Origin: Malurus cyaneus samueli | Taxonomy: Eukaryota; Chordata; Aves; Passeriformes; Maluridae | Direction: 5' to 3' | Assembly (NCBI GenBank): GCA_009741485.1 | Contig: CM019218.1 | Location: forward strand, 27,874,101 to 27,938,100 | Length of the DNA: 64,000 nt | Shown: one piece after another, positions 1 through 33,184 of the stretch | Layout of the letters: every line of letters begins with the position of its first letter | How positions within the stretch are numbered: position 1 is the first letter of the stretch | Made by a program: the position numbers and the translations under genes | Notes under the pieces: generated by a model | What the model was told of the DNA's origin: nothing | Databases searched by the model: none | The model's input: the letters and a program-made list of their open reading frames with translations, nothing else

Positions 1-2022
1 AAATGACTCAAGGGGCAGTTATAGATATTTGGCCTGATTTTAATAGGCGAAGGGAATGAGCTCCAGAGGTCAATAAACCCCTCCAAAATGATGAATGATT
101 GAGTACCTGTGATGATGATAGTGATTACCGGCGCAATTAAACAGTTTGATTAAATGAGCCATCATAACAATGATGTCTGCGGGAAATCAGCCCTCACGTA
201 TAAAGAAAGATAGTGTGGAGGGCTGACAAACGCCAGTGGGCATTCCTGCATGTTCCGCTAGCGCCGAGCCCTGCAGAGCAGGGCTGTATTTACAAATATG
301 AGGGGAATACGGAGAAAAGTCCCTCTCCTACTTTTAGCCAGAGTTGCACCGTGCTTAAAACCCGCCAGAAGCCGGAGAGCAGACACGGGCTTTTTTTCCT
401 AGAGGATCTCCTCCAAGATTAAAGCTAGTCCTAAGAGCAACCGAATTGCTGTGACTGACTTTCACGGGACTGTAAAGAGAGGTGAGTAGAAGAGCCCTTA
501 GTATGTAGATCTCTTTCGAGCAGTGGTTAAGTCAATTCATTTCACAGGGAAGAAGCCAGTCTTCTTGTGGAGTATTTTATACTCTGTCGTATAAATCGGT
601 AACGTAATTCAAGATATTCATGGTAATGAATGCTTGGCTAATCCTTTGGGTGCGCGGAGACCTACAGAGCAGTAGGTTATGCAAATCCTTTCCTACTTTT
701 ACAGCTGTAGTTTTCCAACAGATTTTTTTGTAAGAGATCTAGTCATCGGCAAATGTTATTTGGGTTTTTTTTCCTTCTTTCTTCCACCTCCCTCCACCCC
801 ACCACCCAAACTTTCTGTAAAGTCGACCTGCAGAGACAACCTGTGTAGCCCGTTAGCAATTTGTGCTAATTTGTTTCCCTCTCTTGAATCCGAGTTACTT
901 TCTGTACAGTCAAGCGACTGTAATAGTGGTTTTTGTTCAAGAGTCCATAGTCATATGCATCCTAGTATGAATGTGGAGATATAAACTCCTCTGGGAGGAT
1001 ATATAGGTATCGCCGTTGTCTTGTATTAATGGGCTCTGTGAATAAACTGAGCTAGGAGTAGAGCTGCGCTGGGTATTGACTGACTATAAACCCCAGACTA
1101 TTGACATTCTGAATTTGAACGGTTTCTTCTTTCTTGGGTCGTTGGATCTGTGGATAAAAATACCCAAACAATAAGAATAAGACTGCGGTGATATAAGGAT
1201 GAGGCAATAGGTGTCCCAACACTCTTTCAGCACGCATACCTGCAGTGGCGCAAAAGGAAACCATGCAAAGGGAACCAGACCTCAGAGAGAAGGACAAGTG
1301 CTGAAAGAAAGTACCTTCAAGCATTTTTCACTTTAAAAAATCATGCAAGCAATGGGAGCAAAGAACTATAAGCTCTCCACTTTCCTTATCTGAGTATGTT
1401 AAAATTCAATTTTTAAAAAACGTTGGATCGCTGCAGTCCCAGTTGATGTATCACACATGGCATAGGAAGGGCAAGAATGGAGCGCAGAGGGTTAAGGTTT
1501 AGTGTTAGGTGGGAGGGAACATAAAAAATTACAGATGCAACTTCGAAAGGCAAGCAGCAGTGAACACTGCAAAAGTCTTTGGGCTGCTTTTTTTCAGTTT
1601 TTTGATTTTAGTCTTTTTTTTAGAAATTTTCTTAGTCAGAACGAGTTAGCAGAGACTTCTTTGAAAAGAGAATTGAGAAAATAAAAAAACCCGAAAATTA
1701 TTTTCGAAGCAAGAAAAGGATTTCTTCTATGTAAGCCAAGTCATCCAACTTCTTTTTTACAAGAAAACTGATGAATTTCTCTTACAGCTTGAGGTCTGAA
1801 GACATGCATGGAGCCTTAAAAACAGCTAGATTACTTTTGCACAGCCAGGTTATAAGGAAAGACCTCTTCTCTTGTGACACTGAAACTATTTTAAAAGATA
1901 AACACTTGTGTATCTCAGGAGACAAGGCTCTGGGTTTGAACTTCCTCGGCTAAAAAAAAAGTTTTGGAAAGCTACAAATATTTGAACCACGGTCCTACTA
2001 AGCTGGCTACAATCTTTGGGGC

Positions 2023-2024
<2 letters not shown>
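1..2024. other. Unique non-coding segment A, conserved-looking
   Basis: This is clean sequence with no recognisable gene. The first 250 bases are AT-rich, contain TAAT-core and ATGATGATG-type motifs, and keep scattered CpGs, which resembles a vertebrate conserved non-coding element. This is an impression from composition, not an alignment. The frames at 679-984 and 1052-1324 show no family motif and end at ordinary stops. The main evidence that the segment belongs to this locus is its degraded reverse-complement image at about 14835-17405. The segment stops where that image enters a CR1 element, so the contig probably broke at a repeat. Confidence 0.6.

Positions 2025-2053
<29 letters not shown>
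2025..2053. repeat. 29-base poly-G homopolymer at contig end
   Basis: There are twenty-nine consecutive G residues just before a short tail (2054-2067) and the N gap. Pure G runs of this length at a contig edge are typical of sequencing or gap-filling artefacts. A true G tract that stalled the polymerase is the alternative. The tail TGGCCAAGTTGCGG recurs, also preceded by a G run, at 13047-13069 as TGGCAAGTTGCGG. Confidence 0.9.
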
Positions 2054-2067
2054 TGGCCAAGTTGCGG

Positions 2068-2092
2068 NNNNNNNNNNNNNNNNNNNNNNNNN
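2068..2092. other. Assembly gap, 25 N
   Basis: Twenty-five undetermined bases separate segment A from the left arm of the inverted repeat. The gap lies exactly at the outer edge of that arm: its first base after the gap (2093) pairs with 35882, where the right arm runs seamlessly into unique sequence. A fixed-size gap of this kind normally marks unknown distance. From the image inside the spacer I infer that about 3.9 kb belongs here and that the sequence now following the gap is misplaced. Confidence 0.98.
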
Positions 2093-9322: not shown

Positions 9323-9329
9323 GTAAGTA

Positions 9330-10460: not shown

Positions 10461-10471
10461 TGAAATATTAC

Positions 10472-10948: not shown

Positions 10949-12450
10949 GACTGAGATGCACTTCCATACCGGACACCTTTCATTTCTCTTGACTTTTGAG
11001 CCATCTATCAGGGAAAAAAAATAAAAATAAAAAAAAACCAAAACCAAACAAAAAAAACAAACAAAAAAAAAAAAAAAAAAACCAAAGAAAAAACCAAAAC
11101 CACAAAAACACCAACCCCAAAACAAACAATAATAAACAACCAGATCACACCACCCCCACCCCCACCCCCGATCGTATCTCACACTTTTCCTGAAAACAGC
11201 CTTCGCTGTGAAAGTGATGCAGGAGAAATGGAAATTAGTCATTTTAATTTTCCCTAATTACTATTTTTTAAATGAAATGTCACTAGTCGTGGGGGCTGGG
11301 AGTGGGGGTAAATAAATAAAAAATAACCTAAGTATGTGAAAGCCCCCACCCCTGCACGTACGTATCCTATTTTCCTCCGAGTTCCTAACAGCATCTTTGT
11401 TAGTAGATGAGTACATTCACTTAAGGGCGCTAAATTGAGATTCCTTTTTTTATATATGAGCTTACACCAACCTGCACGAGTGTTCGTCAGTTTATAATAA
11501 CACGTGGGTTCTACTGTAATATTATGCTTGTAGGAATCCATCGATAGGTCGATAAAGTGATCCTTTGAAGTTGGTTTATTTATTAACCAGCAGGCTTTTG
11601 CATTATCTTTCTGTGATATCAACAGAGGTGGTTTGGGAAAAAAATTTTGATTGACAAGAAAAAAATCCTTAGATTCATTTCTTTAAAAATGTTGCAGTTA
11701 AATTCCCGGCACGTACAGTGAAGAGAGTACACTTCAAATGGTGACTATACCATATAATTTTTCTTATCTTTTGATACTTTATTCTTCATTTTATTGTATT
11801 CAAATTAAGGATTTTATTTAAATTCCCCAGTTGTGTTCTCTATTGGCATCCGTCAGGATGTCTGCTCTTCATGATTGTAATAGAATCACAGCAGTGTGTG
11901 TCTTCCGGGTGAGGCGCACGCAGTTGGGAACAGGAGCCGAAACCGCAGCCCCCGTTGGGTTGAAGGTTAGGTTATGGTGTGAGGAGATGGGGAAATAATA
12001 AATGAGATTTAAACGGAACTTGAAAAGCCCCCCGCAGCCTATTGTGAATATCACTTCCTCGCGACATATAATATAAGTCTATTGTCTTTGAGTTGAACAT
12101 GTTTTTTATCAGGTTTTTTGACACTGTTGTGTTATAGCTCTATGTCTATATGACTATTTATGTTAGAATTTGGTAAATAAGAGAGAGATAAGATAAAAAC
12201 ACGTTTTCTTTAAGATTTACAAATCGTGAGGATTATTCTTCATTTCAGAGGTAAGGAAAAAAACAGAAATTCAGAGAACCAAATAACAATGCACAACGAG
12301 AGCCAACAATACACAAAAAAACCAAAAACTCGCCGAAAGCACTTTATTTTTCCGAGAAGGCCCACAAGAGCCTCCCAATTTGGATTGCCAAGTATCTCTT
12401 TCTTCTGTTAGTTGGCGGGGATAGCTGATGTTTGCGCTCCCACCAGTGCC
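10949..12450. other. Spacer start (C), mostly AT-rich, gene-free
   Basis: Homology between the arms stops at 10948/27090 and the sequence becomes unmatched. 11007-11170 is A-rich low complexity grading into an ACC/CCCCCA repeat. The rest is AT-rich without recognised genes or transposons. I infer that the reverse complement of this stretch directly precedes 27090 in the real chromosome and fills part of the 2068-2092 gap. Confidence 0.5.
11007..11170 (+). repeat. A-rich / CCCCCA low-complexity tract
   Basis: The tract has long runs of A interrupted by CC and CAAA units, then CACCCCCACCCCCACCCCC near 11150-11168. It lies just inside the left arm boundary. Such low-complexity DNA may have helped end the consensus-quality sequence. 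No matching tract exists next to the right arm boundary at 27090. Confidence 0.75.
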
Positions 12451-14520
12451 ACTGCGCGCAAGCGTTCTTTTGTAGGGTACAAGGTGAGGAATTTCAATGT
12501 GTTGGCTGCAGGGGGGAGGATGAACGTCTGTCTCGTTTGGTGACGGCCGGCGGTTTTGTTATGTTTTCTGGTTCCAGACATCGGGGGCCCTTCATTCCAA
12601 ATTCCCGGCGGTTCCTTTAGAGCGACCCACAAAGCAGTTCGCTCACAACTTAACTATTGCAAACATGGGGCCCAAGAGTTGGGTGTGATGGAAGTGGAGA
12701 AAAGAAAGAAAGATTCTTCTTTTCTCCTCTCTTTTGTCGACACTTGCAAAAACACTATTTTACTAACAGAGCAGGAATAAAGACACATTTGTTTTTCGGG
12801 GGTTATCTTCAGGAGTGGGTATGCTATAGCCGTCTCTGGTGCTGGACAAGCCAAGAGATGGTTGAAACCTTCCCCAGTCGACGGGCAAGAGGCTAAGAAC
12901 CAGAGAGGACAAGGTTTGGGAAGGCAACTTACACCATATTGCTCTGAAGGGCGCACCTGTATTTCCTTTCTTAGTTTCTAAATGGACGGACTTTTGGTGA
13001 ACGGCAGGTCTTTATTGGCTGGCAGCCGCCCCTGAAAGCGGGGTGGAGGGGGGGGGTGGCAAGTTGCGGGGAGGGAGGGAGGTGGAAGAAAGAAAGGAAA
13101 AAAATATTCCCCCACACAATAAACAATAATGACTAAGGGCTTGTCCCCCAAATGAACGTAGGATCCTCTTACTGAAGAAGGAAAATACATAGGGAGATTA
13201 TAGAAAAACCACCAGCTACATGGCAGCTGTATGAACAAGAGATTCTCTAATTAGAGGCCGAGAGAATGATGAGGAGTTTGGTGCCTCCGCAGAATAACAT
13301 AACATAGAGGGCCATGCGCTCATGCTTTTGCCATTCCCCTTTCCGAGCCATGCCTCACGTGGGCCGACGTTTCACACCATTTTAGCTGTGTTTTTATTAT
13401 TCCAGCGCCAAGCACCAGGAAGAACTACTTCAAATATAACCAATGATAAATACAATAAATGAAAATATACAAAAGGTTGTTATCTCACTTTTTTCCCCCC
13501 CGAACCACACATAATTGATTTACAACCAGACACACGCCCAGGCAGTCGAGCTTAGGGTAAAGGATCAAACATCGACCCGTTTTAAGGCCAATATGATTGA
13601 ATGACTTGTGCACTTATACTTCGCGGCCTCCCGCCCTGAAAAATGAGCCCATGTCACCAAAAACACTAATAGGACCAATAGCGTGCGATACCGATACAAG
13701 GGAGGGTGGCTAGCGATCCCCACTCAAAATATGTGGTGAGCTTGCTTTTACTTCGACTCCACCTCTGCCTCATATTAACAAATGGGAAGAAGTAAAAACC
13801 CGATAAGGAATATTGTCAGTCCCCACCAACAAAAGAACGGAAAATAATAAGCAAAAGGAGGTTAGACTTAAAATACCCAAGAAGAAAACAATGGGGGACA
13901 TAAAGGGAAATTCTTATTAAAAAAATCAATAAATAAGGACGCCAAGAAACGCATCACTCTGGAAGAACACCAAAACCCTAAGGGAAAAAAGGGCGGTCAA
14001 CATTATTTGTTTTTGTTTTCTTGCTTTTTTCTCACCAGGGTTGATTTATTGGAAACCAAGAAAGAAAATTTTCAGTTGGTTAATTGGATTGAAGCACAAA
14101 TTGGGTGTTTTTTATGTGTGAATAAGTCGGTAACAAGATCTGTCCACTTTTAGATCAGGTTGGCCTGTAATTGGTAAATCCACTTGGTTTTGTTTCGAAT
14201 GTGGCAAAGAGGTCTGGTGAAAAGAAAATGTTTCATTCCTATGCAGGCACTTGGAAAGGCTTTTCCCCCCTTTGTCCCTTGCCCCAAAATGGGGGGAGGG
14301 AGGAGCCCAAAGGGGGGGGGCCCTTTTTTAGGCGTTGTTGTGCTACAGGCAGCTGCACATTCACTTGTTATTGTATTCTGAGCAGGGCTAAAAAGACCTG
14401 GCTTTTTTTTCTTTTCTGGCAAAACTTTGGCCATTTTTTTTGTTCCCCCAATTGTGCTTGTCAAGGGGCCAGGGGGTTGAGGCAGCCCCGTCTGTCCTCT
14501 CAAAAGGAATCACTCTCCTC
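12450..14520. other. Noisy spacer sequence, gene-free
   Basis: Sequence quality visibly falls along this stretch, with more homopolymer runs and broken frames. No protein family is recognised. A purine-rich run at 13067-13098 resembles the reverse complement of 765-800, but this is low complexity and off-register with the main image, so I do not rely on it. The segment should correspond to unsequenced DNA in the gap after 2067. Confidence 0.45.
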
Positions 14521-14835
14521 TAAAGTCTTCTCCCAGGCAACAAGTGACAGAACAACCCCTTGAGACAAAGGAAGCTCCAAGCTGTGCCAGGGCAGGTTTA
14601 GGCTGGACATCAGGAAGAATTTCTTCAGAGAAAGGGTTGTTAAACATTGAAGAGAACTTTAGGGCCCCCCAGGAGTGGTCAGTCACCACCTGGAAGTGCT
14701 TCAAAAAATTGTGGGGGGCCCCAACTTAGGGCTATGGTTTGTTTTCCACCGTCACCAAAGTGGTGATCAGTCAGGTTGACTTGATGGTTTTCGGGGAGGT
14801 ATTTCCAAAAAACTTAAAGTATTTCTTTGTTTGGA
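14520..14835 (+). mobile_element. CR1 LINE 3' fragment, error-ridden
   Basis: Characteristic CR1 3'-end phrases appear in order on the + strand: TCTCCCAGGCAACAAGTGAC at 14529, then CAGGTTTAGGCTGGACATCA, AGGAAGAATTTCTTCAGAGA and AAAGGGTTGTTAAACATTG between about 14594 and 14650. The tail follows as a GGTGATCAGTCAGGTTGACT-like segment near 14761. The copy contains many inserted and missing bases relative to the family, consistent with an unpolished read rather than ancient decay. Its 3' end abuts the reversed image of segment A. In the inferred real order it lies antisense just after position 2024, where the contig broke. Confidence 0.85.
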
Positions 14836-17405
14836 TTTTCTGTAATACTTCTTTTCTCATTTTCCATGGGAGGAAAAAAAAGGGCACCCCCTCCCTTTTT
14901 TTTTCTTGCTTTTTTTGGGAACTCCTCCAGCACTTCAGCTAGCAAATTCTCAGATTTTCCTCACGATCATATCCTCTGAAGGGGCAGGCCTTCTCCATCC
15001 TTACAAAAGCTTGGCAGGGGCTTTAAGGACCCCCAATTTTTGACCCCCCTTTCTGAGCTGTAGCTAAGATGGGGCCCAAACTTTCTTCTTACAAGGGAAA
15101 CCCCAAGGGAATACCTTTTTTAAACCCCCATGGCAAACTTTTTCTATGAATGCAAACCCAAAAAAAACTATTTTAAACCCCCCCCACTGGAATTTTTTGA
15201 AAAAAAGGAAAATTTTTTTTTTTGGAGAAAAGAAGGGCCAAGGTATAAATTATTTATTTCCCCAGGAGTTTAAACTTTAAAGGTTTCCAAAACTAAAAAA
15301 AACCCTTTGGGTTTAAAAAGTTTCAATACTGGGCTAAAAATTTCCAGGGGTCCTTTTCTTGGTTCCTAATTAAAATTTTGAAAACATGCAAAAAAAAAAA
15401 AAGGGTTTTTTTTTTTTAAACAAACAAAAAAACCCCCCCAAACCCCCCCCCCCCCCCAAAATTTTTCCAATTCATTTAAAAAAACTTGGGGTAAAAAAAA
15501 AAGACAATTTAATAAAAAAAAAAACCAAAGTTAACTTAAAAAAAGAGGTATTCCAGTGGGAAGGATAATTTAAAATAATTTTAAAAATAAATTTTAAAAA
15601 AAAAAAAAAAACCCTGGGAAAGAAATGAGTTTTTTTTCTTAAAAATGGGTTAAAGGTTGAAAAAACTTTTAATGTTAAAGAGGGAAACCCCCCATTTTTT
15701 TTTCATTCCAAAAACCCCCCCAGGGCTTTGTGGGAAAAAAAAAATAAGGCCCCCATAAAAGGTTCCCACCCAGATTTGGAATTAATTTCAAAAAAAAAAA
15801 ACAGGTTGAATATTTTTCCTTTCCCTTTAAATTTTTTGTGAAATTTGGCAATTGGGTCCCAATTAACCAAAACTTTGAAATTTGCCAAAAACCTGGTTAA
15901 AAAGCCAGGGGCAAAAAAGAAAATTCCCCACTTTTTTTATTTGGGACACTTTTTTTAGTATTTAAAACAAAAAAATGAAATTAAAAAAAACTGGCTTTTT
16001 TTTCTGGACTTTTCCCAGGGGTAAATAAAAAAAAAAATTTTTCTTTCCCCCCATGTTGGGTAAAATTTTTTTAAAATTTGGGTTTTTTTTCCCCCAATTC
16101 TTTTTTTTTTCCCAAAATATTTTTTTTTACTTTTGGGGGCCCAATTCCCAATTTTGCGGGAGGGAAAAAAAAAAAACATTTTTTCTGGGGCAGAAGTCAA
16201 GGGGGTGGTTTTAAAACCTGGCCCAAATTGGGGCATTGGGAAACCAATTTTCTTAAAGTTTTTTTTTTTTTCAGGGATTTTCTCTTTATTTGGATTATTA
16301 CCAGTTATTAAAAAGTGAAGGTATTTTAACCATTTTAAACCCTTTGAAAAAAAAATCAGGGTTACCCTCTCTGCAATTTAAAAAACCTTAGGAAAAACTG
16401 TTTAACCCATGTTTTTTTTTTTTTTTCAACTTTTTTTTTTTTTTTTTCCCTTTTTTTTTCTTTTTTCGGGCAAAGTTTCTGTGTCCCAATTAAAAAAGTT
16501 GAGGGGAAAAAAAAAACGTTGGAGCGACAAGAACCTAAGACACAGAAAGAAAAAGTCAAGCATTTTCTAGTGAAAAAAAGGGAAGTGGGGGGGGGGGCCC
16601 CACTTAGGGGGAATAACATAGCGATATCATAAAATAGAACAAGTAGTTAGGGATTCCCCATGTTTTGGCCATTTAACCGCCAACGAACGGAAGAAAAACC
16701 TTCAAGTTATTTTTTAGGTAGGGAATAAAAAACATTTCTTGAAATGGCAAAACCATTTTGGGAAAAACCCATAATTTTTTTCCAATTTTTTTTTCCCACC
16801 CCATGTGATTTTTTTTCTGGGGTTTTCCACATTCTGCTTAAATCAGTGAGCGGGATTTTAAGCACGGTTGCAACATCATGACCTAAGAAGAAGTAGGGAG
16901 GTATGTTGTGATGTAAACTTTTTTAACTAACCCTTTCGTTTTAATTTTCCCTTGGCGAGTAATTGTAAATACAAGACCCTGCTCTGCAGGGGGGGCGCTC
17001 GGCTGCAACTTCTAGAATTAGGCGGAGGAAGGCGGAATGAGGAGAAATACCCACTGGGCAGATTAAATAATAAAACAGCGCTGCGGCACCACCAAATTGG
17101 ACTATGTGACTTTTTTATTAGTTCTTGTTGTTTTTACCCCGCACTAGCTATTTTTTCTCCAGGCGGAGGACCATTCATTGTTATGATTGGACTGGCTCAT
17201 TTAATCTTCACACTGTTTGAAATGCGCCAAAGGAATAAACACAATAAATCAATCATCAACAAAAGATACACTTAATCTATTTTTCTTATTCATTTTAATT
17301 AAGGAGGCAGGGGTTTATTGGCCTGATGGAATAGCATAACATATCCCTAAATCGCCATATTAAAAAAAATAAGACCAAAAATATCATAATAACTTGAGCC
17401 CATTA
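14835..17405 (-). repeat. Degraded reverse-complement image of segment A (1-2024)
   Basis: The match is collinear and strongest at the right end. 17340-17405 mirrors 1-50. 17175-17230, with CATTCATTGTTATGAT and GGCTCATTTAATC, mirrors about 100-170. 17308-17322 (GGCAGGGGTTTATTGGCCTG) mirrors about 68-88. 16963-17000 (TGTAAATACA, CCCTGCTCTGCAGGG) mirrors about 262-299. 16852-16880 (GGGATTTTAAGCACGGTTGCAA) mirrors about 340-365. Further left, 15325-15370, ending TCCTTTTCTTG, mirrors about 1710-1755, and 15020-15068 (CTTTAAGGAC, GAGCTGTAG) mirrors about 1785-1830. Many indels and expanded homopolymers separate the blocks. This is what a single unpolished long read of the opposite strand would look like. 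Confidence 0.88.
15040..16840. other. Homopolymer-inflated low-quality consensus
   Basis: Runs of 5 to 17 identical bases occur every few nucleotides for all four bases, with abrupt switches such as A-runs into C-runs. Real avian DNA does not look like this. The frames found here are lysine-, phenylalanine- or proline-rich artefacts. It is the worst part of the reversed image of segment A, corresponding roughly to positions 400-1800. Confidence 0.85.
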
Positions 17406-18849
17406 GAAATCAAATAAAAAAAAAGATTTTCATTAAAGTTAAAGACAAAAAGCCGAACAAAGGGGAGAGTGAAAAATAACACCCCAAAGGACTCTCTGCA
17501 CAAAGGAAGCGAGATCGTCAAATTCAAACCAAACACGAAAACCACACACAACCCAACCACCACCAACACACTCTCAAGTAGGGTATTGTTTGTGTTTTTT
17601 CGTTGTCCGTGGGTACTCTCCTCCCTCAACAGCAAAGTCCTATGCTCATGATGTGTCCAAAACAAACATCTCACAATAAAACCAGGGGGTACATAATCAT
17701 AGATAAATCCCACTATTAACGGGATAGTCTGTTTTAGATTTTATGTGCAGGGGACCGTGAAGCGGGAGGGGGGGGCGCTTGAGGGGGAGCGACTAAAACT
17801 GCAGCAATCGATTAGTTTTTGATCCTATTTGCGCACTCACATGCCACCTAAACTTCAAGCCATCCCCCATGATTGATTGATCAAACACGGGCCCTCAGCA
17901 TATCTCCCCCGTCACAATTTTTGAGTTGCTGCGTCTGAGCGGTTTATTATGGCATGGAATGTTGAGCTTCAGGGAAGCGGAAAGGAGGATGATGGGCGAG
18001 AGGAAGACAGCAACAACATCAAATTCTAAAGAGCAGCGTGGTGAGTTTAACCCATTGCAAGATAGATCTGTGTACGAAACCTGTGTGTTTGGCAAAGGTA
18101 TCAATTATGATACTCAAAGGTTTTGTTGTTGGGAGAGTGCAAATCATACTCCATATGTTTACTTAAATCCCCTTTCGCTTATAATTTTATTACTCCACTG
18201 TTATATTTATGCTTATCCACTACACGGTTAGGAAAGGCAAGTGGGAACCGAGACATAATTACTCCAGAATACATTACACAACAAAAGCCAGGACGGCAAG
18301 CGTCGATAAAAGGTGAAGATGATCCAAGCAACGACACAACACGTAAAATAAACAGAACAGCAAATCAACCGCCGGGGATGCGCGCTCGGAAAACGAGACA
18401 TTTGCTTATTAACAAGTGTTATTCCCAGAATTTTCTATTCATAACATTTCTTGGATACATCTCTCTGTACAAAAAAGACTACAGCTCAAATGACATTATA
18501 GTTCTTTAGGAGCTCCCCCCATTTACTATGGAGAGGACCTAGCAGAACCAATCGAACAAAAAAAACTAAAACAGATGGATTTTCCCTTTCTTCCTATCTT
18601 TCTCCCCCCAAAAAGCGACCCATACGGGCGCTGGGGCGTGCGTCGTCTCTCTTTCGCGGCCCCTCTGCTTCTCAAGATCATTCCAGAGGCGTGTCTCCTG
18701 ATAAGAACAATCGTATTTCATTTCTTATTATCGAGGGCGGTGGCGCCAACACGGTCTTTGTAATGATTTGGTTTTTCTCCAGGGCTTCTATTTTATCGCC
18801 CTGCCGAAAATTAATTTTTAGAAACCGCATCATATTTGATAAATAGCCT

Positions 18850-19880
18850 TCAAGGAAAGGAAGAAGAAGCACAGTTTGGGGGGCGTCGGGCAAGCAGCGT
18901 GTCGTCTGACTGAACGGCGGAGCGGCGGGAGGCGCCCTCTGGCGGCGGGAGCAGACCTCGCTGCCAGAGGAGAAAAGAGCACACTAATTGCAGAACAAGG
19001 CCCCCATCTCCCGCTTCTCTGTAGCTCTCCGTGCCCCGGGCTCGCGCACCCTTGAGGCGACAGTAACTCTGGTCCCGATTCATGGCACGTTGCGATCTTT
19101 TTTGTGATTCCAAAGAAGGGGCCGGGGGAAGAGGCACCCCGCGCGGGGCGCGCCAAGACAAGCCTTTTCCCGGGAGCCCCCACCAGCCCCGGCCAATACA
19201 AGGAAGATAATTTTTTTGTGTGTCTCCAACATAAATTTTCTTTAGTCGTCGATAGTCTTTCCCGACACCGAGAACCGTGTCCTGTGTTCTTGTCGGTGGA
19301 ACCGCAAACTTTCTTCCTCGCTCTCCCTGGCCGCCCAGAATTATCTCCCTGTTCTCTTCTTTCCCCTTCCTCTTTCGGTCGCACCCACACGCCACAATCT
19401 ACCTCGTGTTCCTTCCTCTTCTCGTTTGTCCTTCCCCTTTCCTCTCTGGCTGGCCGCGATCCCTCTCTCTTCCCTTCTTTCCTATCCCTCTTCTTCGCTC
19501 CTTTCTCCTACCGAGACCCCTCCCTCCCGTCCCTTGGCGGGCCTCTCGGCGTCGCGAACGAGCTACTAGCTCTTTCCACTGAGCAACGGGCTCTGTGGCT
19601 CTATACGACTCAGGGAGCAAGGGCTGCTGCGCGGCTCCCCCACCCCGCGCGCCGCGAGGGCAGCCCCGCCGACCGCGACTTACCTGCTTTATTCTTCCCC
19701 CGTCGCTAAGCCGGCGGGGGCTGAGGAGCGCCTTACCGAGCTTTGCCCCGCGCCCAAGGCGGCCCGCGCGGCCAAGACGAACGGCCGCGGCACGCTAACC
19801 CGCCGGCCGCCGCTCCCCGCCGCCGCATCCCGCCTCGCACCCCGCTCCACACGCCGCCGCCCCGCCAGTCCAGCGCTTGT
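18850..19880. promoter_or_regulatory. GC-rich island cluster within noisy spacer
   Basis: CpG-dense sequence occurs at about 18885-19185 and again at 19520-19875, separated by a pyrimidine-rich CCTCTTTC-type stretch at 19300-19510. Long frames on both strands (up to 201 codons) lack known domains and reflect GC bias. It is probably a CpG island promoter region in the underlying locus, read at low accuracy and in reverse orientation. Confidence 0.45.
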
Positions 19881-22789
19881 CATGTACTTTGGCTATTTGG
19901 TCCTCGACACTACTTTTATCACCTTTCTTCCGGGTTCCGTCACTTCATTCTCCCGCCGATCAGCGCCGCAAAACTGAGCCTCTTCTATAAGGCAGCCGGC
20001 AGCCAACCTGCCAGGACCGAAACGGTGACTTGTAAACACTCAACTACATCACACAGGAGAGCGAGGGAGAAAGAAGGGAGACAACCAAAAAAATAACCAT
20101 GCCGAAGGAAGAGAAAAAGAGAAAAAGGAGAAGAGAAGAGAAGAGGATTTGGGTGTATCGAGTCCGGCATTTAAACAAAAACTATTACAATTTATTACTA
20201 ATCGCCATTATCTTTTTAATAATCCCTTCATCGCAGCCGCGCGTTCAGCGGAGTGACGTGTTAAAAAAAGATATAATATAATACCAAAAAACCACAAATC
20301 CTATAACAACCTATAGATCGTATTCTCTCTAACTTAGGCAAATATCTCCGAGCACTGGAGGGGTTAGCATGAAAAGAACAGAAACCCACGGGTTAAAAAG
20401 ATTGCCTTCCTTGCTTCTATACATCATCTCAACCCTCAATTCATTCATACCTCTACGCAATTTACCTCGCGCTCTTGCCATCTCGACAGCATAGAAAAAG
20501 TGAAACAAAATATTCATGTAGTACACTGACTTGCGAGATCTCTGGTCTCTCACCAATAGTGGAGTTGGCTACGGAACCGAATAACGTAACCTTACAGTTA
20601 TGGTAGGCTGGGCTCTTGGGATCCAAGTTTTAAATTTTTTATTTGGTTTTTAATATATATTATATTTTTTTATTAAATATTTTTTGTTTTAATTAGAAAA
20701 CAACTTCGGTAAAAGCCCCACCAAGAAAAGAGAGGGGAAAAGAGAAAAGGGATGAAGAAGAAAAAGAGAAAGAGAAAGAGAAACGACACAAGGAAACATT
20801 AAAAAGATAGTAGAACACCACAAGAAACTCATACCAGATGGTTCCCTTGACTGTAATATGTTAAAATATATTGTTGTTTGTTATAATGTGTTTAGTGAAG
20901 TTATGGTATCTTCCTTTTTTTCACCCACAATATCATGCTGATGGTTATTTTATGCCCGATGTGAAGTCTATTTAATGTGTTGCCAAATAAAAGGGGAAGA
21001 AAAACCACGGCAAATCTTTTTCTTTGCACTCTAAAAATCAACAATTTCTATAAAGACATGGGAGGTGGCCGATATTAATAAATAAAAGTATGAGCGACCA
21101 CATCCTCTATTGGGAAGTGATAATTGGAAAGACGCGACTGTGGCGCAAAAAAAGGGATAGGATATATAAAAATCTTCCTAACCAACTTTCACCCTATAAT
21201 ATAAAAATAGTCCCTCTTCTTTTATATAGCAGGGGATTCCATAGTCCGATTTGCTCTCCTCTGATGTGCAAAAATGCATAAGATGCCTATTGGCGGCACA
21301 TATTAAAAAATAGCAGCAAAGAATGTAGGTTCACTGGCTGTTGTTTGGTGTGTGGCATGAGTGTACTACATGTGATGTGTGTGGTCTCTCATGCAATTGT
21401 TCACAACGCTTTTTTCTTCTCTAGCTTACCCCACAACTTCTCTCTCAAACAGTCGTAGGCAGCGGCATTCGGCTTCTGTCTTTCTAGCTTGCTTCCTGCT
21501 CGTCCGTTCACAGGCTGCTGCGCCTGCTGCTGCTGGCTTGCTCGGCTCTCAACGCTGCCTAAGACTAAGAAATACATATGATGTGTCTTGTTTTGTAATA
21601 TACGAATTCCCAGTATATTATATGTAAATACACATATACGCTGCTTTTTTTTTTATTTTTTTTTTTTTTTCTCCCCCTTCGCTACTTTGACAAGGACGAG
21701 GGGAATTGCTACTTAAATAAATGTTCTCTGTGTAACTTTCAGAATTTATTTCCCACCTTTTATCTACCCCCCCACCCTGCCCCACGATGACTACCCCTAC
21801 AACTTTGCCTCTCTCACTTCCCTGATGTTGAACATTTATATTATCTAAGCTTGACTTTTGATCCTTCAGCTCTCGGTTTGTTTTTTTTTCTTATGTCCTC
21901 TCTCTTTCGTAAGTGCATGGAGATAACGTGTCTCTAGTTTCTTCATTTCGTTTCCTTCTTTTTATCCTCTTCGTTTCGCTGTAGGGTTTCTCGTGCCCGT
22001 GCTGAAGAGGACCATCTTCCCCCACACACGCAGACAGGCATACACACTTTCCCCTTTTACCTCTCCTAGCACCCCCACTCCTCCCTCAGCACCTCCAGCC
22101 CCTGCTCTTGGTCTCAGTTGATTTCATTTTGAACATTTCTCTCTCTGTTGTGGCTGTTCTTGTTTTGTTTTGATTTTGCTCTCGTTTAGTTGAACTAGTT
22201 CCGGACTGTGGCTGTACTCCTCATTCCTGGATCTTTTGTTGATTGTGTTTGTGTTTTTCTTGGTTATACTTCTTATGTTCCCACCCTACTATATTCTTGT
22301 TTCTAACTTTCTTATTTCGATTCTTCTTCCCTCCGGGCCCGTTTGTTGAGCTTAAGATATCCGATTGTGTCCCCACTACGTGCGGGATGGGTACACAAGA
22401 GACGCTTAAGCACCAAGGTGGTGTCCGTAATTTCGTGTTAACCTGTAACGGAGAGAAAGAAACACTCCCCCTAGCGGCCCCTTCCGGAGATTGTCAATCC
22501 GATCCCCCCGCGCCTTTTGTCATTCTATCACTGCTTTCCCGATCCTCAACCCATGCCGCCAACCGCCGCTTGCCCCCACACCGACCTGGCGTGAGCAGGA
22601 GCGCCACTAAACTGGCGCTCGCGGCAAGCCCTTCTGACCGCAACCCCGAGAGATTGGTCGAGTGGAACCCTGGCTGCATGCATGGGTCTTCGGTCTTCAG
22701 TCAGACAGACGCTAGCGTGGAAAGCGGGGAAGACAAGGTATGCTGATTATCTCACATCGGGGTCAATTTTGTTGAACACGCCACTGCAC

Positions 22790-23180
22790 GTGTCACAACG
22801 CGTCCGCGCGCCTAGGGACCCGGCCTCAGCGCTCTATATATGTCCTGTGGGATCCGCGGAGGTGCCGGGGCGGGAGGGGGGCAAGTGGAGGCGGCCGGCC
22901 GGAGGGGTGTTCCTCGCGGCGAAGGCCGTCGCGGCCTTTCTGGCCCGCCTGAGACCCCGATGCGGTGAGTGGTTGCGGGGCCAGAGAGCCGAGGATCCGT
23001 GATGGGCATGCGTGCCTGGCAGAGCCGCGAGGTCTGTGCCATGCACACGCAGCCGCCCGCTCCGGAATTTAACTTCCCCACGGTAGACGGCTTGCGGCGC
23101 TGGGCTGGGAACCCAAAGACCATTCCCCCGGGACGCGAGTGCGGGGATCCCAGCCTAGGCTCTAGTTGAGGTGCAGCACC
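22790..23180. promoter_or_regulatory. GC-rich island within noisy spacer
   Basis: A compact CpG-rich segment has GGCCGGCCGGAGG-like and GTCGCGGCC runs around 22885-22940. It is bordered by AT- and T-rich sequence, with a T/G-rich tract at 23270-23390. No protein family is visible. It is likely another small CpG island of the underlying locus. Confidence 0.4.
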
Positions 23181-25239
23181 CACGGGAAACTGGGTGTGGA
23201 AACAGAGCTGCGTTTGGGGAAAACGCTGGAAGTGGCTTGGGTGATGATGGGGGTAGTATTGGCCTTGTCATTCTCATTTAGTCTTATGTTTTGGTTTGGT
23301 TTTTTTCTTCTTTTTTCTTTTTTTTTGGTGGTTTTTTTTTTCCTTTTAATTTTGAGTTCCCCAAGGGTTTTTTTATTTCTCTTTGGTAGTGGATGTTGAG
23401 AAAAGATTGGCCTCCTGTGTTAGTTGTTGAGAGGGTGGTTTTTCTTTTCTTTATTCCCGAGATGGGGTGGGTGTATTTTCATTCCTCGCTGCGTTTCTCC
23501 TCGGAAACGGCCAACAACAGCCTTAGGATTAGAGGAGGCGTGGCTCAGCTGCATTGGCTCTAGAGGGCAGAATTTAAGAAATGGAGAAGTGTTGTTCTGG
23601 AAAGTTCATCCTCTTCTCTACTTGATAGGATTGACCATCCTGCATTCCAAACTGTTGGTTAATTATTTAAGGGAGGCTTATTCTTACAGGTGCGCGAAGA
23701 AAGTGTTAGTCTTGAAAAAATAAAAAGAAGAGGATGATAACTACATACCTCCTCTCCGCAAAACAGCTGGTGTCTCCGCAGAGAGGACAGGACCACTATT
23801 AAGGAAATACTGGGAAATGGCAATGAGTTGCGGTAATTTTTTCGATATTTAAGAATGCGTACGGAGAAGACACTTATGTATGGGATAAAGAAGAACCACC
23901 AGTAAACTCTCAGGCAAAGACTATAGCAAAAAGCCAATGACTACAAGGGACTATATGACCGTTGCGAGGGAATGGGACACGTGAGTTACCCCCTTCAGTT
24001 TTTCTTTTGCTGTAGAAAAGAAGAATAGACTGAGAACTGAGAGTCCATTATAGAAGGAGGAGCTAAGTAGCATCTTTGATGACAGGAAGTGTGGACGAGC
24101 CGATTGTGATTACAAGAGAACCACCCAAACGATGGGGCAAAAAGGAGAGAAAAGCAAATGCGGAGAATAGCGTGATACTAACTATAGCCGTGCCACGATA
24201 ATAATGTTAAAGTTTTTTGGCTGCCCCCATTCTCTAGGGCAGCCAACTGAGCTATGTGGAGAGATAAATAGTTTCACGATGACCAGATGCTTCTCCTTCT
24301 GGTCCGGCACACCCTCCCCGGAACAAATCACCATGTACCTTTCGTATGCGAGGATCCCCCTGGGTTATTTATACAATTGGCTTGCTCCTCCCCCTCAAGC
24401 CCAAGGGGGAGGAAAAAACTTTTCCCCAACGAGCGGAGTTATTTGACTAGAAGAGCCCTCCCTATGAAAAAAGGCTCCAATATTAGGCGATAGTTATACA
24501 GTTCACGGTTGCAGTTTGCTAGGCGTGTGCGTCTCGGTTATGTAGGGTGCCTGATGCTGATTACGCTGGGCGAGAGGGTACTGGTGTATGGGATCTTGCT
24601 CATTGTTTTGCCCCAGTGGGAGACTCCATGGAAAAGAAGAATATGTTTAAGCAGGGGGCCCCTTGCCTTTTTTTTCTCCGCTAGATCCAGAAAAACGGTC
24701 CTGCCTTGGGTAGACATGCTCCCTACAAAGCCCTGCTTGGGAAGCTGCTGATGAGGGTGAGACACACCGCCTCTCCGCCGATGGATTAGAGGAGGTGCCA
24801 CTCTTCAATCGTCTTCAGTCCGTTGAGTTGCTCGGGAGGAAGCGGAACGTGTGGTTCCCCCGTGGGGCGGATCCCTTGCGAAATGTCAATATATATAAAT
24901 AAAAAAATACTCTCAGAAGCACAACAGGCAAATAAAATCGAACAAGGGCTAACTCACGAACCCAAACCATGAGGCGTTTATTAGATTTACCTATCCCCAT
25001 TGCTGGTTTTCCTTTCCCAGTGGCCTCTGCCCAGAGCATTACTGCGAGACTGCAGAGTGTGGCTGTGTCCGCGTGTCTGTGTCTGTGTGTCCGTGCATTT
25101 AAAAAAAAAATATAAGAAAAATAAGAAATTGAAATACTCGTATAGCTCTGATATACACCTCCTTCTCTCCACTCCTCGTCCTTCCCCCCACACCCCCCAA
25201 CCTCTCACCCGTTCTCGTCCTTAGGTGTTGCCAGCTGGC

Positions 25240-25480
25240 CCGGGTAGGCACGCCACGTTGTTCCCCCTCTTACTCTAGTGGGTACGTTGGTGAGGAAGTG
25301 CGCAGGCTGGGCGAACCGCACGCCCCGGGGGCGCGAGCCGGGCGTGGGCGGCGGGGACGTCTGCTGCCTCCGACTCCGTTCACGAGTGGGACATCGCCGT
25401 GCTTCTTGCGTAAACAGGGTCCGGCACAGGCGATCTCCCCCCGCCCCCGACCCTCACCTACAAGGCGTCCTGACCCGCGT
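25240..25480. promoter_or_regulatory. GC-rich island within noisy spacer
   Basis: CpG-rich sequence with GCCCCGGGGGCGCGAGCC-like content near 25322-25340 is followed by pyrimidine-rich DNA. The 249-codon frame starting at 25278 has no recognisable domain and lies in error-prone sequence, so it is not called as a gene. Confidence 0.35.
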
Positions 25481-26189
25481 ATCTTGCCGTGTCTTTTTGA
25501 GGTGGCTGGGGATCTTAGGGAGTCAGCCTTCCCTCCACTCTGCCTCCTGTTCTGTCCTCCCACTATTAATTCTTCCCTGCGGCCGCCGCGGTTCAAACTT
25601 TTGTGTGCGCTTGCTGGAGGCTTCCGAGGGGCTACCTACCCCCCTCCGCCTGCAGCCTACTCCACTCTGGACTCCAAGTCATTCTCTGGCCTCTCCCATC
25701 GCTGGTTTAAAGCGATTAAAAGGAAAAACTGGTAAGCCAGATAGGGCACGAGAATATGTTGGAAGAGGAAGAGGGAGAGGGAGGCAGGCAGGGGACCCAA
25801 AGGAGAAGGCTCCCGTGGCACCGGCGGCCGGCTCGGTGCCGGGCCGGCAGGAGCAGAGGAACAAAGAAGCTCCAAATGTCCCTAATATTTCCTGTGTTTA
25901 TCCTCAGTCGTTTTTCAGCGGACTTTTTTGGCCACCCCGTGTGTCCTGGTTTCTCCCCTTGTTTATTAAGGAATTTCCTCTAATCACCCTCCTTTGCTTG
26001 CGCGTGATAAGATTGCAGGGCAGCTAAAGATGAGCTTATTGTTGCATGCCGACAATTTTCATTCATATCTTCCGCCCACCTCTCGGCGCTCTGGAAAATA
26101 TATATCACGACTTTTTTTTCTTTCATTAACCAGAGTTTGTGACAATTTTTTTTCTCCCTACAGGCTCTCTTCCGTTCTCTCTCTTTCCT

Positions 26190-26460
26190 TACTCCACCTC
26201 CTCCTCTGCGCGCGGCTGGTCCCGACCCCCTGCAGGCCAGCTGTGTCTCGGGCAAGCGGCGCCTCCTGCCGTCGGCCTAGGAGGCCGGGGCCGGGGAGCC
26301 GTGCGGGAAACGGAAGGGGCCAGGGGTTGAGCAGACAGAAGCTCCGCCGCTTTCGTTGGCCAATCCGTGTGTTGTCGTAGACGCCGGCATGGAGCGGGCC
26401 GTGGCGCCTGGGGGCCGCATGTTCTGCCGCAAGTTGCCGGTCGAGAGGGCTTCAAAGAAG
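26190..26460. promoter_or_regulatory. GC-rich island within noisy spacer
   Basis: This is a short CpG-rich patch (GGCCGGGGCCGGGGAGCCG near 26283) with AT-rich DNA on the right and a CT-rich run on the left. It is the last GC patch before the junction with the right arm at 27090. No coding signal is recognised. Confidence 0.35.
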
Positions 26461-27540
26461 AGCTTCACCCGATAGAAAGCCAGTACAGAAGGACAAGGGT
26501 GCTCAGGCCAGCTTTCCAGTGCATTGCTAATAGTTCTGCCTCAAATTAAAAAGACACAACAGGAGCCAACCCACGCGCTTAAGATGAGAGACAAGAGGTA
26601 GAGCTGGCCCAACTATAAGAGAGAGCTGGAGATTTTTAATGTAATTCTTTTGCTAATGTGAACGATTTCAATATTCAAAGTGCCTAAATCCGCTTGTAAA
26701 GAAGATGACAAACTATTCAAACACACATTCACCCCAACACCCCCTCTTCCCCCCCCTCTCTCTGCGGGATGAGGGTTAAGGTTTTCTGGAGGGTGGGAGC
26801 GAATTAGTGTTGAACTTACTCAATGGGAGGCGGAGCCCAATCAAAGGAGAAGTGAGGGCCGTGTGATGGCATGAAAGATTAGGGAAAGAGGGAAGCCCAA
26901 AGGGAAGAGTTGGTTTTTTCTTCAAGATCGAAAAGACCATGACTGTTAGTTTAATATATAAACTCGTCCTAATGCAGCCTTCTTCTCGTGGGGAATAGGA
27001 AAATATGTTAAAAAAAAACTATCAAATGTTCGTTTAGTCCCTATAATAGTTGACTTCTTGACCAAATTAGAGATGTGGAGCGGTGACCGAACCGCCAGCT
27101 CCTTTTGCCGAGGCTGGAAATGGTTTTAACAGGCGGTAAAATTTCATCTTGTGGTGTCAAATTGGGGTCAGTTTGGGGTTAGCGCTCTCAGTGTCCGAGC
27201 AGGAGCTGTCCAGCTGTGTGGGGATTCATTAAGGGCAAAAGATCCGTTTCAAGAAAAACAATGCAAAGACAATCAGAGGGCTAAAGATCCTCTTCAAATC
27301 GCATTTTACAAGTGCACCAGAACAAATATGGATGCTGAAACCTATTCCCTTCAAACTCCCAAATCGGCTTCTTAGCTCTCGGAGGGAGCGAGAGAGAAAA
27401 TCCTTTAAAACTTAAGAAGAGTCTGTTTTCAATCAGCCTTTCCGAAGTGTGGCATCTTAGTCCTTTGCTGGCTTTGAGACATGCCTCTCTTGCTTGCTCG
27501 TTACATCTCTCCCTCCCTCTCTCTCTCTCTTTTTCCACAG

Positions 27541-27566
27541 CCTTGCAAAAGCGGATGGCACAACAG
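27541..27566 (+). other. 26-nt microexon candidate (right arm copy)
   Basis: A CT-rich tract of about 30 bases ends in TTTTTCCACAG at 27540, an excellent 3' splice site. Twenty-six bases follow, then GTAATATTT as a 5' splice site. The segment holds GCGGATGGCACAACAG, so a start codon in strong context gives Met-Ala-Gln-Gln before the donor. Without a reading frame from neighbouring exons I cannot say whether it is a coding microexon, a translation-start exon or part of a non-coding RNA. I do not recognise the gene. Confidence 0.35.
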
Positions 27567-27599
27567 GTAATATTTCAGATTTCAAGAATAAATCCCAAA

Positions 27600-28650
27600 G
27601 GAGAAGTTAAACTGCTGTTTTGCACGCGCGTGTGCTCCTAGCACAAGATTTAATGCAAATAGAAAGTTTTTAGTGGGAAACAAGCCATGCTTGCACGAAA
27701 TCCTGTTGAACACTGTAGGAAATTTTGTGCTCTCCTTGTAGGTGATGCTCTGCTCCGATGGGTAATTTAGGCTAGATTTACTTTTCGGTTCTTAGCATTT
27801 GTGGAAAGCACCTATTGCTAATCTGGTTTATTAAATTCGCATGGTTTAAATCCTCTTAACGTTCCTACATCTGTTAGGACAATTGACGCCTTGCTACAGG
27901 GACAAATAACTTGAACCTTAATCTTGTTTGTAACTTTATTCAATGTTTGTTTGTTTGTGTGCTGAGTTCAAGTATTTCGGATGATGCCATTGTGTTCGAT
28001 AACACGTAGGCTTGCATTTGAAGGCAAAAGTCCTCATAAATGGGGTAAAGATATCGTGGAATGCACTGAAAAATTTAGCATATTCGAACTGGCTTTTTAT
28101 CTCCAACTATCATTCCAGGCAATGTGTCATAATTAATGAAGAAAGCAATCTGCCTGTTAAAATGTGGACATGGGACATCACCACGACCCCGTACTGAAAT
28201 TTACGCGAATTTTACTTTTGTTTTGTGAAGTGTGGAGTTTAAATAGTACGTTTTCCTTTTTATAATCAGGTTTATGCCACAGTTTAAATTCTTACCCCCA
28301 AATTCGCTCTTTACCACGCTCTCCTTTGCCCTTACGGTTGCTTTTTACAACTTCAGTCACTTTTTATTCGTCTCAGCACTCTTTGATTCGCCTCCGACTT
28401 CCCGCAGCTGCAAGACTTTCGAGGTCCCATCTCGGGTGCCCCTGTGAAATCATGCACGTTTTAGCTTCTGCAAATCAGTGGGTTCATTTAGTCCTCCCCG
28501 CGACCTCCCCCCCGTCCCCCCCCCCATCCCCCGTCTGTTAGTAGTGTACTTCGCTTTTCAGTAATGTATTATTATTTGTCGAAAATCTTTCTGGTCCTGA
28601 AAGTCAATGGTAGCCCATCACGGTGAACTTTTCTTGACCTCGACTGCGGT
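27600..28650. other. Gene-free AT-rich part of right arm
   Basis: This is non-coding sequence matching 9370-10440 reversed. The 61-codon frame at 28012-28197 is identical to the left arm copy but resembles no family I know. A C-rich run near 28507-28533 is length-variable between arms. No transposon is recognised. Confidence 0.5.
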
Positions 28651-28694
28651 ATGACTCTTTGGGAGCTGGATTAGGAGGAGGTTCATTTACTTAC

Positions 28695-29110
28695 CTGTTA
28701 ACTTCGCTTTTAACTCTTTCTTCCACCCTTTCCCCACTTCTGTTTTTTAGAGGGAAAAAAAAAAAAAAAAAAAACCCAAGCGCATACACGAAACAAGAAC
28801 GATGCGGGGGTCGTCCTCCCGCGCCGACCCCCTTTGTGGCGGTGCTTGCCCGGGCCGCGGGGCTGCGAGCCGGCGCTAGCGGGATGCCCGGTGCGCGCTG
28901 CCTCCCGCGCTGCGCCGGCGGCCATCGGCGGCCCCTCTAGCGCTATCTGGCGGGGCTCAAAACCAGGGCCCGGCCCGCCGCCGGCGCGGAAGCCGCGCAC
29001 GAGCTCGCCCCGCGGGCCGCAGTACTCCCGCGGGACCGCGATGTGGCTCCCTCCGCATCCCGTCCCTGTGGGGCGAAACTCGCCGTGGGAAGGGGCGTAG
29101 AGATGACCCC
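28695..29110 (-). promoter_or_regulatory. CpG island with - strand splice donor (right arm copy)
   Basis: The CpG-dense part runs from about 28795 to 29105. Read on the - strand it leads through a T-rich (A-rich on +) run to ACAG|GTAAGTAAATG with the exon ending at 28695. This could be a non-coding first exon whose intron runs toward lower coordinates. The microexon candidate at 27541 is on the opposite strand, so the two would belong to divergent transcripts if both are real. The GC core differs from the left copy by several bases and short indels, as expected for hard-to-sequence GC DNA. Confidence 0.35.
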
Positions 29111-29119
29111 CTTCGCGTT

Positions 29120-32090
29120 TGTCCGGTTTATGTCACGCGGGTGGTGTGAAGCTCTAAAGTCAGAGAAGAGGGGGTTTTTCTCATTTATTAGGCTGGAATG
29201 TTTATGGAAGTGAAGACCATAACAGCCGATATGTGTATTTCCATCACACACCAGGGGAAAAAAAAAAAAACAAAAACAAAACAACCAAAAAAAAAAGAAA
29301 GAAGAAAAAAAAAGAAGACAAAACCAACTACAAACCTGTCAGGGCTTCCCACTAACACTGCTTGCACCGGGTAGTTAAAATCTAGTTTGAAAATGTTCAA
29401 AGAAGCCTGAAGCATGAAAAAAAAATAATCTTTCCATTATGACATGGTAACCAAAAGGACAGTTAGGGCAAACTAAATGGCTTTGGTGTGATATCAGAGA
29501 ATCTGCAAAGGCTTCAAACTCTGCTCAGAGCTCTGCTCTAGCTCACTCAAAATATCCCCTTTTGTTCTCCAGCTGCCTATAAAACTCCGAAGAGGAGCGC
29601 TCTCATTTTTACTCTGGAGTTCTCGGTCCGGAGAGAACAATATACTCCTACCTCTTTTGAAATGATCCGGAGACTCTCACAACACACAGGCAATCACTCG
29701 AAGCACGAATTTCCTTTCTTTTTCAAGAACTGCTCGGCCCATTGTTTAAAGTGGAATTCAGTGCACAGCCCAAAGAGAAAAAGAAAAAAAAAATCTTAGG
29801 AGCCTGGTTTGGTATTGCAAAGAGTGAGCTGACAAAATATTATAGCGTTTCCTGGAAGTACACGGTGAGAGCCGGCGGTGTGTTCCTGAAAAGAGATTGC
29901 TTTTTTATTCCACCCCCCCTCTCCCCCCGCCCAAGATTGTGATCATCTTTGTATGTCTTTCTTTGATCCCACAAAGAGAATGCAATATACATATATGTGT
30001 TTGCTCTCCATACAAGAAATGCTATACAATGGAATATGCGGCCGGTTAGTCCTCATAATGCTTAGTTTTGCTGTAATTAATTGAAAACAGTTATTAGGTC
30101 GTCATTGGCAATAGCGTAAATAATTGCAGCAGATTTTTACTTAAAATTGACCGGTCATAGAGTGATAGATCGATTCGAGGTATAAAAATGATGTATCAAA
30201 ACATCAATGTCGATTATTTGAAATATTGTAGTCGAATCTTTTTATTGCTTCATCGGTTAAGTGTCTGAAAGTGCTGTGTTCCAACATATATTTATGTTGT
30301 CAATACTGTCAAAACTGTCAGTTTTATTACAGTGGATTTGTAATACATTTCGGATTTGCTCATTTACATAAAATGTCCACCTCAGATACCCCTCCTTTTC
30401 TCCGTCTCTGGAAATCAGTGTCAGTTTAATGAAAGGATTCAAGACTCATACCTGAAGAGGGGGAAAAAATAAAAAGAGAAAAGAGAAAAAAAAAAGGAGC
30501 TATTGCTCCATTATGTCCAATTTAAACATCCGTTTGGAAAGCTTGGGCTATTTCTGACTCGCCATAAGAGGGAATTCCTCCCCCTCCCGCTCCCTCCCCC
30601 AGCCCCGCTTATTTTCCCAGTAGAATTTAAACACTTTTCTACTCTCACACCTAGATTAAACCCTCCAGTAGAATTGGGAAACTGTACAGGGATACACTGA
30701 CGAACCAAAGCACACCTGTGAGTGCTGCAACCCTCCCAAAGAGAGCAACAACCCCCCGAACCATGCACACACGCGCGGAGGTTTGCATCCTGCTAGAAAG
30801 GAGACAAAAGGAGCAATAAATATGTGTGTAAGCATTTCCTAACGGTTTGGAGCCCAAAGGAAAAAAAGCAAATTGGAAGCAGTATTGGACATTTGATGCC
30901 CCCGCCCCTATTTTATCAGGGTCCGATTGATGAGATTATTCACTTTAACTGAGAGAACTGATTTTTCATTAGCAGGATCTCAGGCAACTCTCTAGTTTTC
31001 TCCAAGAGCCCAGCTGAGGCATGGAGAAACTCAATAATAAATAAATAAATAAATAAATCCATTTGCACAATAAACTCTCTTCAATAGAACAAACAGTGAA
31101 ATTAGGCAAATAACTTTATTCCCCACCCCTTTCCGAGGATGATGTTGTTTTAAAGGTGTTGGTGAGATGGACCTGAGGGGTTGGTTTCTTTTCCGTTTGT
31201 TCCCCCCCCCTTCCCCCAGGGATATCTATGTTTAAATAGATGCTGAAGAGATTTCTTAGTTCACGCGAAAGAAGGAGGGTTAGTTAAGGGAATGGCAGCG
31301 CGCCTGGCAGGTATTTTAATGACTGTCCCTTCCTTTGAACGCTTTCAATTTCAATGCTCCTTCTCATCCAGAATATGTTCCCCAAACTAAATATGATTTC
31401 TGTTGTAATCCTCGCGTGTTTGTGATCCCTTCTGAGGTAAATTGAGAAGTACGCTGCGCAAAAGGAGGAAATTGCCCCTGGGGTGCTTTGTTTACTTTGG
31501 TTTGTAAAATCCTGCTAGGCGATGGTTTCCTCAGTGTGTGGCAAGTGTTTCTTCAAGAAATTCATCAGCCCTTCTACAATTACTTCGAGCTCCGAGGGAA
31601 GAAAGCTGCCATCACTTTCTCACATCCCAAGGTGTTGCATGGGGGAGAGAAGAAAAGACTGGAGCATTTAATTACAATGGGGAGGGGTGGGAGGTGGGGG
31701 AACGGCGGCTGCAGAAAGCCGTCCCAAGCCTGTACCTGGAAAAGAAAAACCTGCAAGGGTATATTTGGGAAGCGTGTGCCATTTAGACATGGGGGAAAGT
31801 ACCCCATCTTGTGCAGTAATTAGTCTGAACAATAAACATAATTGGAACAAAATCAGTTGGAAGTTTCTGCGTTTTTAATTACGTTTCATTTTGTGGTAAG
31901 CCGTAAAATTATGAATGCCTCTCAATTAAACACTATCCACTTGTAAAGCATTTAACAACAATTATTCCTTAATCAGTTGGAATGTTAGCCACAAATGATG
32001 CTGTTAAACATCAAAGGGACGCTTTAGACGTTACCTTTTAGTCATAAGTAAGAGGATTAATTTCTATAATTAGAGGGGATAAATATGTGC
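29120..32090. other. Gene-free part of right arm with constrained-looking blocks
   Basis: This matches 5900-8880 reversed. It contains the TGACA block (about 30030-30400), an AAAT simple repeat at 31033-31058, and A-rich runs at 29250-29330. The 111-codon frame at 31488-31823 is duplicated in the left arm, shows no known domain and overlaps other open frames. I do not call it a gene. Confidence 0.5.
31033..31058 (+). repeat. AAAT tetranucleotide repeat
   Basis: About six AAAT units with one interruption. The left-arm partner (6931-6955) is shorter and interrupted differently, so repeat length disagrees between the two copies. Confidence 0.8.
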
Positions 32091-32149
32091 ATAAATAAAT
32101 CTAATTTTTTTACACGTTCTCATCCTGTCTGGGAGAGGCGAGGATCTTT

Positions 32150-32320
32150 GACATTGCTCGCACTGCTAGCTTTCCCAGGTCGGAGGGGACCCGGGAGCAG
32201 CGGGGTGAGAAGACCCTGCGGGGAGCCCCGATCCTGCGCGCAGCTCCGCAGGCGCTGGCCCGTCCCCCGCGGCCGCACCAGGGTTGGGGCTGGGCCTGGG
32301 GTTTGCGCCCACCACGGACA
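32150..32320. promoter_or_regulatory. Small CpG-rich patch (right arm copy)
   Basis: Reverse complement of 5680-5840. It is CpG-dense, beside a 21-base T run (32364-32384). It may be a regulatory element or part of a composite island with 32650-33100. No coding family is recognised. Confidence 0.45.
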
Positions 32321-32649
32321 CGAGCTTCGGGGGAATTTGCTTCCCTAGTTTTTTTGGGGTTTGTTTTTTTTTTTTTTTTTTTTTCGGCACTGTGGTCTAC
32401 CTGGCCGTTCATTTCCTTTGAGGACAATTTGCTATCCCCGAACAAAGCTCGAGATTTGACTCGAATACCGCAAATAAAATTAGCATGACCTTGATTACAC
32501 CCCGTATGAATATCTCATTTACCTAATGACTGTATGTCACGTACGCAGAGGGTCAATTTCCTTTTAACCTTTCCCATTGCTGCAGTAAGCATTCTTTCAT
32601 AATCAATGGCCGTTTGAATAATCAATTCGCATTTTATGATCCCTGACAA

Positions 32650-33100: not shown

Positions 33101-33184
33101 TGTGAAACCTCGAATGAATCATTGCATCGGCCTCGCCGTATAGCTGATGTCCAGAAGCCTCACTCACTGCCACCAGCCCTCTTT

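Follow-up and report, generated by a model that had tools for sequence, protein, structure and literature searches.

A probable gap fill placed backwards beside an N gap in the Malurus cyaneus samueli assembly

We analysed a window of 64,000 nucleotides (positions 27874101-27938100 of contig C70) and searched the genome to which it belongs (1.067 Gb in 1295 contigs). Judging from the sequence, the block at 2093-27089 is most probably (a rough probability of 0.86) an artefact of gap filling during assembly rather than a biological palindrome. We propose that the sequence spanning a gap was put in backwards and left untrimmed between the N gap and the right contig, and this is why both flanks of the gap would occur twice in the assembly.

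Layout of the block

The window contains a single N run, which has 25 N (2068-2092) and adjoins the block, as at an overfilled gap; PBJelly leaves 25 N at overfilled gaps. Both flanks of this gap are duplicated within the block, the right one at 2093-10948 and the left one at 16850-27088. When the block is read on the minus strand, the alignments give the following order: the left flank from -6343 to about 365 (negative positions lie to the left of the window), a piece derived from another scaffold, C29, an image that includes at least 684-807, then 1302-2067 in reverse, a brief stretch with no assigned source, and finally 27090 to 35882. A sequence bridging the gap would have its parts in this order. 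We also painted the block in 165 chunks, taking the highest score of 825 shuffles as the threshold: 61 chunks were assigned to the left flank in reverse, 59 to the right flank in reverse and 15 to C29 in forward orientation. The remaining 30 fell below the threshold; 20 of them lie within 10943-14092, and nine of the other 10 have their best hit at the expected place.

Table 1. Features of the block and its surroundings (positions in the window)
Feature	Positions	Strand	Remarks
Right part of the left contig	1..807	+	Reverse images: 4-365 at 16850-17412, 684-807 at 13054-13244
Terminal piece of the left contig	808..2067	+	Putatively inverted in the scaffold; contains a 29-G run; abuts the N gap; image firm only for 1302-2067
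25-N gap	2068..2092	.	N run in the window
Extra copy of the right-contig end	2093..10948	-	Matches 35882-27090 reversed and complemented; differs mostly by indels
Noisy stretch containing an A-rich low-complexity run	10949..11651	.	Perhaps DNA missing at the gap
Noisy forward image of 1302-2067	11652..13069 (start approximate)	+	Image turns round at 13054-13069
Noisy reverse image of 807-684	13054..13244	-	From alignment against shuffles
Ambiguous stretch	13245..14031	.	Either about 684-387 in reverse or C29:23666122-23666329 in forward orientation
Swollen copy from another scaffold, C29:23666323-23668241	14032..16839	+	Includes a CR1-like fragment near 14526-14710
Noisy reverse image of left-flank DNA from 365 to about -6343	16850..27088	-	Source mostly outside the window
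Left end of the right contig	27090..35882	+	Source of the copy at 2093-10948

Images of the two flanks and their error profiles

The copy of the right-contig end is the strongest internal repeat of the window, with 98.4% identity over 8.9 kb, and BLAST places the end of the copy and the start of the original at the same base, 27090. An inverted copy this long and nearly identical could be taken for one young arm of a real inverted duplication or palindrome whose other arm has strongly decayed, and BLAST settings do count 39 mismatches among its differences. However, even these settings give more gap openings (71) than mismatches, as does another BLAST run (74 against 32), and in a gap-tolerant alignment the 103 difference sites comprise 59 homopolymer indels, 36 other indels and only 8 substitutions or complex changes, although these 95 pure indel sites come from an alignment where gaps are cheap. 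Thus, under neither scoring do the arms differ mainly by substitutions, as those of a genuine palindrome should; in addition, the remaining images differ from their sources almost solely by insertions, and the shared boundary at 27090 also speaks against a palindrome, which we consider very improbable. The differences in the right-contig copy are clustered, with four of the 18 500-bp bins empty and others holding up to 18.

The source of the left-flank image starts within the window and mostly lies beyond it. In a gapped alignment of 1-2067 with the reverse complement of 14500-17600, one chain rises above shuffles: it pairs 9-365 with 17404-16850 (325 matches, 29 mismatches and 203 gap columns) and scores 97, compared with 36-53 for 20 shuffles and 23-71.5 for 3.1-kb pieces of the remaining window on both strands. 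When the scoring tolerates insertions, the pairing of 4-365 with 17412-16850 exceeds 60 shuffles by 22 standard deviations. The sequence-only reading had described a mirror of the window's first 1900 bases within 14835-17405; this holds for 16850-17405, but the chain stops at 365, and roughly three quarters of the mirror described is absent. A mirror of 366-1900 in 14950-16850 scores at shuffle level. With homopolymers collapsed, the portion past 400 stays within the range of 10 shuffles at all three settings. In three scorings, 366-2067 against the reverse complement of 14043-16849 reaches 86.2, 21.1 and 19.5, not above the range of 40 shuffles per scoring (means 113.9, 22.5 and 16.4; maximum 21.5 in the third), and a repeat of this test gave 68.0 against a shuffle mean of 87.1. 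Genome searches with 1-2000 and 300-2030 returned only self-matches; other noisy copies may exist, since these searches also missed the noisy image of 1-365.

In the other direction the mirror, which had been thought to be bounded at 17405, continues to 27088, matching DNA to the left of the window down to about -6343. A genome search with 17400-20400 found reverse matches at two places on C70 upstream of the window, and aligning 40 kb of upstream sequence to the block gave collinear reversed blocks out to -6141, with longer alignments beginning at -6371 and -6343. The reversed collinear chain thus covers some 6.7 kb of the left flank, from -6371 to 365, and the whole alignment, whose tail past 365 is poor, scores 3492. 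Five shuffles score 1109-1149 and another 11-kb upstream flank 1459, and neither the unreversed (1228) nor the merely reversed (1200) left flank matches equally well. Formally, the two long alignments reach 2042 and 2036, but we do not count the portion past about 365 as mirror, because identity drops there from 0.95 to 0.74-0.89 and the separate tests of this portion fail.

The upstream stretch from -5999 to 0 has a CpG observed/expected ratio of 0.77-1.15 in four of its six 1-kb bins (0.42 and 0.64 in the others) and a GC content of up to 65%. This CpG-rich stretch is promoter-like, and is a possible reason for the gap.

Natural divergence consists mostly of substitutions. In the left-flank images, insertions amount to 0.50-1.2 per template base, deletions to 0.005-0.02 and mismatches to 0.02-0.07; when the C29 image is included, the ranges are 0.24-1.2, 0.005-0.05 and 0.016-0.07, respectively, the insertion-tolerant alignments somewhat overstating insertions and matches alike. 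Hence the left-flank and C29 images are dominated by insertions and the right-contig image by indels, as in overfilled gaps. One left-flank image segment contains a perfect stretch of 75 bases. This error profile points to sequencing or consensus noise rather than evolution. Insertions pooled from several raw reads, followed by patchy polishing, would yield such a profile, and the fill may accordingly be a poor consensus of a few raw reads that was afterwards polished in those patches where reads could map. Origin from a single read is unlikely, as the insertion rate is far above that of an ordinary raw read.

A piece derived from another scaffold

The stretch 14032-16839 matches 1.9 kb of a different scaffold, C29, in forward orientation, with a score of 854, where 10 shuffles reach 26.3 at most. 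In a genome search with 14043-16900, the C29 locus was hit at 494 bits (E 6e-137; query 43-1056) and again at query 1263-1352. A repeat at query 484-668 takes 38 of the 41 matches listed for the 40 candidates that were scored out of 1246, and C29 is the sole long match among these 40. This repeat, which we take to be CR1-like, lies at about 14526-14710 inside the C29 copy, and is unrelated to the break of the left segment that the CR1 element had been said to mark.

Homopolymer extensions make up 0.82 of the inserted bases in the C29 copy, compared with 0.18-0.29 in the left-flank images, so the swollen homopolymers attributed to the mirror are real but sit mainly in this copy, whose homopolymer extension is the swelling noticed earlier. 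With its different error profile, the C29 piece is not accounted for by one spanning read. On one side its junction is ambiguous: for 13245-14031, each of the two sources, reverse 684-387 (approximately) and forward C29:23666122-23666329, outscores 195 or more of 200 shuffles in three of the four scorings, but in the strictest scoring they are reached by 11 and 66 of 200 shuffles, and neither wins. A single N stands at C29:23666098 (L020 position 4099), directly before the locus copied here, and possibly marks another join, in C29.

The piece might instead be a real 1.9-kb transposed duplication at about 365-387 in the sequenced bird that is missing from the left contig. The image carries left-flank sequence on both sides of it, some 20 bases apart in one reading, and the uniqueness of the long C29 match among the 40 candidates scored out of 1246 would fit as well. 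Nevertheless, the contrast in homopolymer extension with the flanking images suggests a separate source, and together with the ambiguous junction makes a real duplication unlikely. Equally unlikely is the fuller version, in which the fill preserves a real 1.9-2.1-kb copy of the C29 locus at about 365-387 beside the CpG-rich region, along with a few hundred bases from the gap and the true order, in which 808-2067 is inverted.

The gist of the sequence-only reading, that a reversed, unpolished copy of neighbouring DNA fills the spacer, thus survives in that the block is noisy, mostly reversed and of neighbouring source. However, 14032-16839 comes forward from C29, the left segment is imaged forward at about 11652-13069, and the mirrored DNA has most of its source beyond the window; that reading sensed the artefact correctly and placed it wrongly.

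The turn near 13060 and the orientation of the probable fill

Around the turn near 13060, single painting chunks are weak when taken alone. The forward image of 1302-2067 at 11652-13069 scores 100.5, and 983-2067 lies 9.5 standard deviations out; the reverse image of 807-684, which begins at 13054, scores 50.1, where the best of 40 shuffles reaches 32.0. The 29-G run lies within 2010-2067, before the N gap, and the short tail after it recurs forward at about 13052-13069. A forward image of 807-1302 within 10949-11652 gave z = 0.0, and 808-1301 tested alone showed no support for an image; since 808-1301 is without a firm image, it is uncertain how far to the left the inverted piece extends.

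We also scored a joint model with the order 1-372, the C29 piece reversed, 373-807 and the reverse of 808-2067. In a first scoring, the model with 808-2067 inverted reached 1756, against 1570 uninverted and 1425 without 373-807, while 40 control pieces replacing 808-2067 averaged 1585 and reached at most 1619. A second scoring gave 1374 inverted, 1218 uninverted and 1136 without 373-807, with controls at a mean of 1217 and a maximum of 1239. From these alignments, up to 1.26 kb within 808-2067 standing back to front beside the gap is the likeliest cause of the fill's orientation. A piece within 808-2067 would have been scaffolded back to front, and a long-read gap filler would have taken its orientation from this piece; 13070-27089 would then be the outward extension to be expected from 2067 in its present placement. 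A contig in the wrong orientation next to the gap is a likely cause because the orientation of the bridge matches, running from the forward image of the piece into the reverse of its true left neighbour.

The turn at 13054-13069, where the image passes from forward 2067 to reverse 807, is also what a hairpin long read (fold-back or missed adapter) joined to the right contig might leave, as is the perfect 37-base reverse complement of part of the C29 piece (L020 6016-6052) at 16543-16579, beside the forward copy of the same place. But a hairpin read would repeat the same DNA across the turn, where we find forward 1302-2067 followed by reverse 807-684, as an inverted small contig predicts; moreover, the block ends at 35882 of the right contig and -6343 of the left flank, which are not mirror images of each other. 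We therefore regard a hairpin as quite improbable, if less so than a palindrome, and prefer the backwards gap fill.

Passages of earlier reports describe related errors: long reads on misjoined contigs cause spurious expansion of assemblies (PMC9635638), overfilled gaps, with a gap defined by 25 or more N, are suspected signs of inversions and other faults of assembly (PMC3504050), and one bird assembly had 236 PBJelly-overfilled gaps (PMC7757076). As in the PBJelly-type overfilled or misfilled gaps of these accounts, which they link with inversions and misjoins (PMC3504050, PMC9635638), error-rich, putatively long-read sequence stands here at an N gap and would produce a false duplication; unlike in them, the entire gap-spanning sequence seems to have gone in backwards and without trimming, and part of it derives from another scaffold. 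The inserted sequence is also well below consensus accuracy, like the low-identity gap closures described in passages on the DENTIST benchmark (PMC8848313), although the mean identities there (about 81.5-97.3%) concern simulated reads and other tools, and the figure here is 0.5-1.2 insertions per base in the left-flank images.

For users of the assembly, the block would amount to a 25-kb false insertion, comprising an almost perfect inverted repeat of 8.9 kb, a spurious copy of the C29 locus and a duplicated CpG-rich region, which could mislead calls of segmental duplications, palindromes and translocations. The one biological feature we see in it is a possibly real, though unlikely, C29 insertion in the sequenced bird. 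As a small example on which methods for finding backwards gap fills could be tried, the block has practical value for curation, and it suggests the true order of the scaffold, namely 808-2067 inverted and then 27090.
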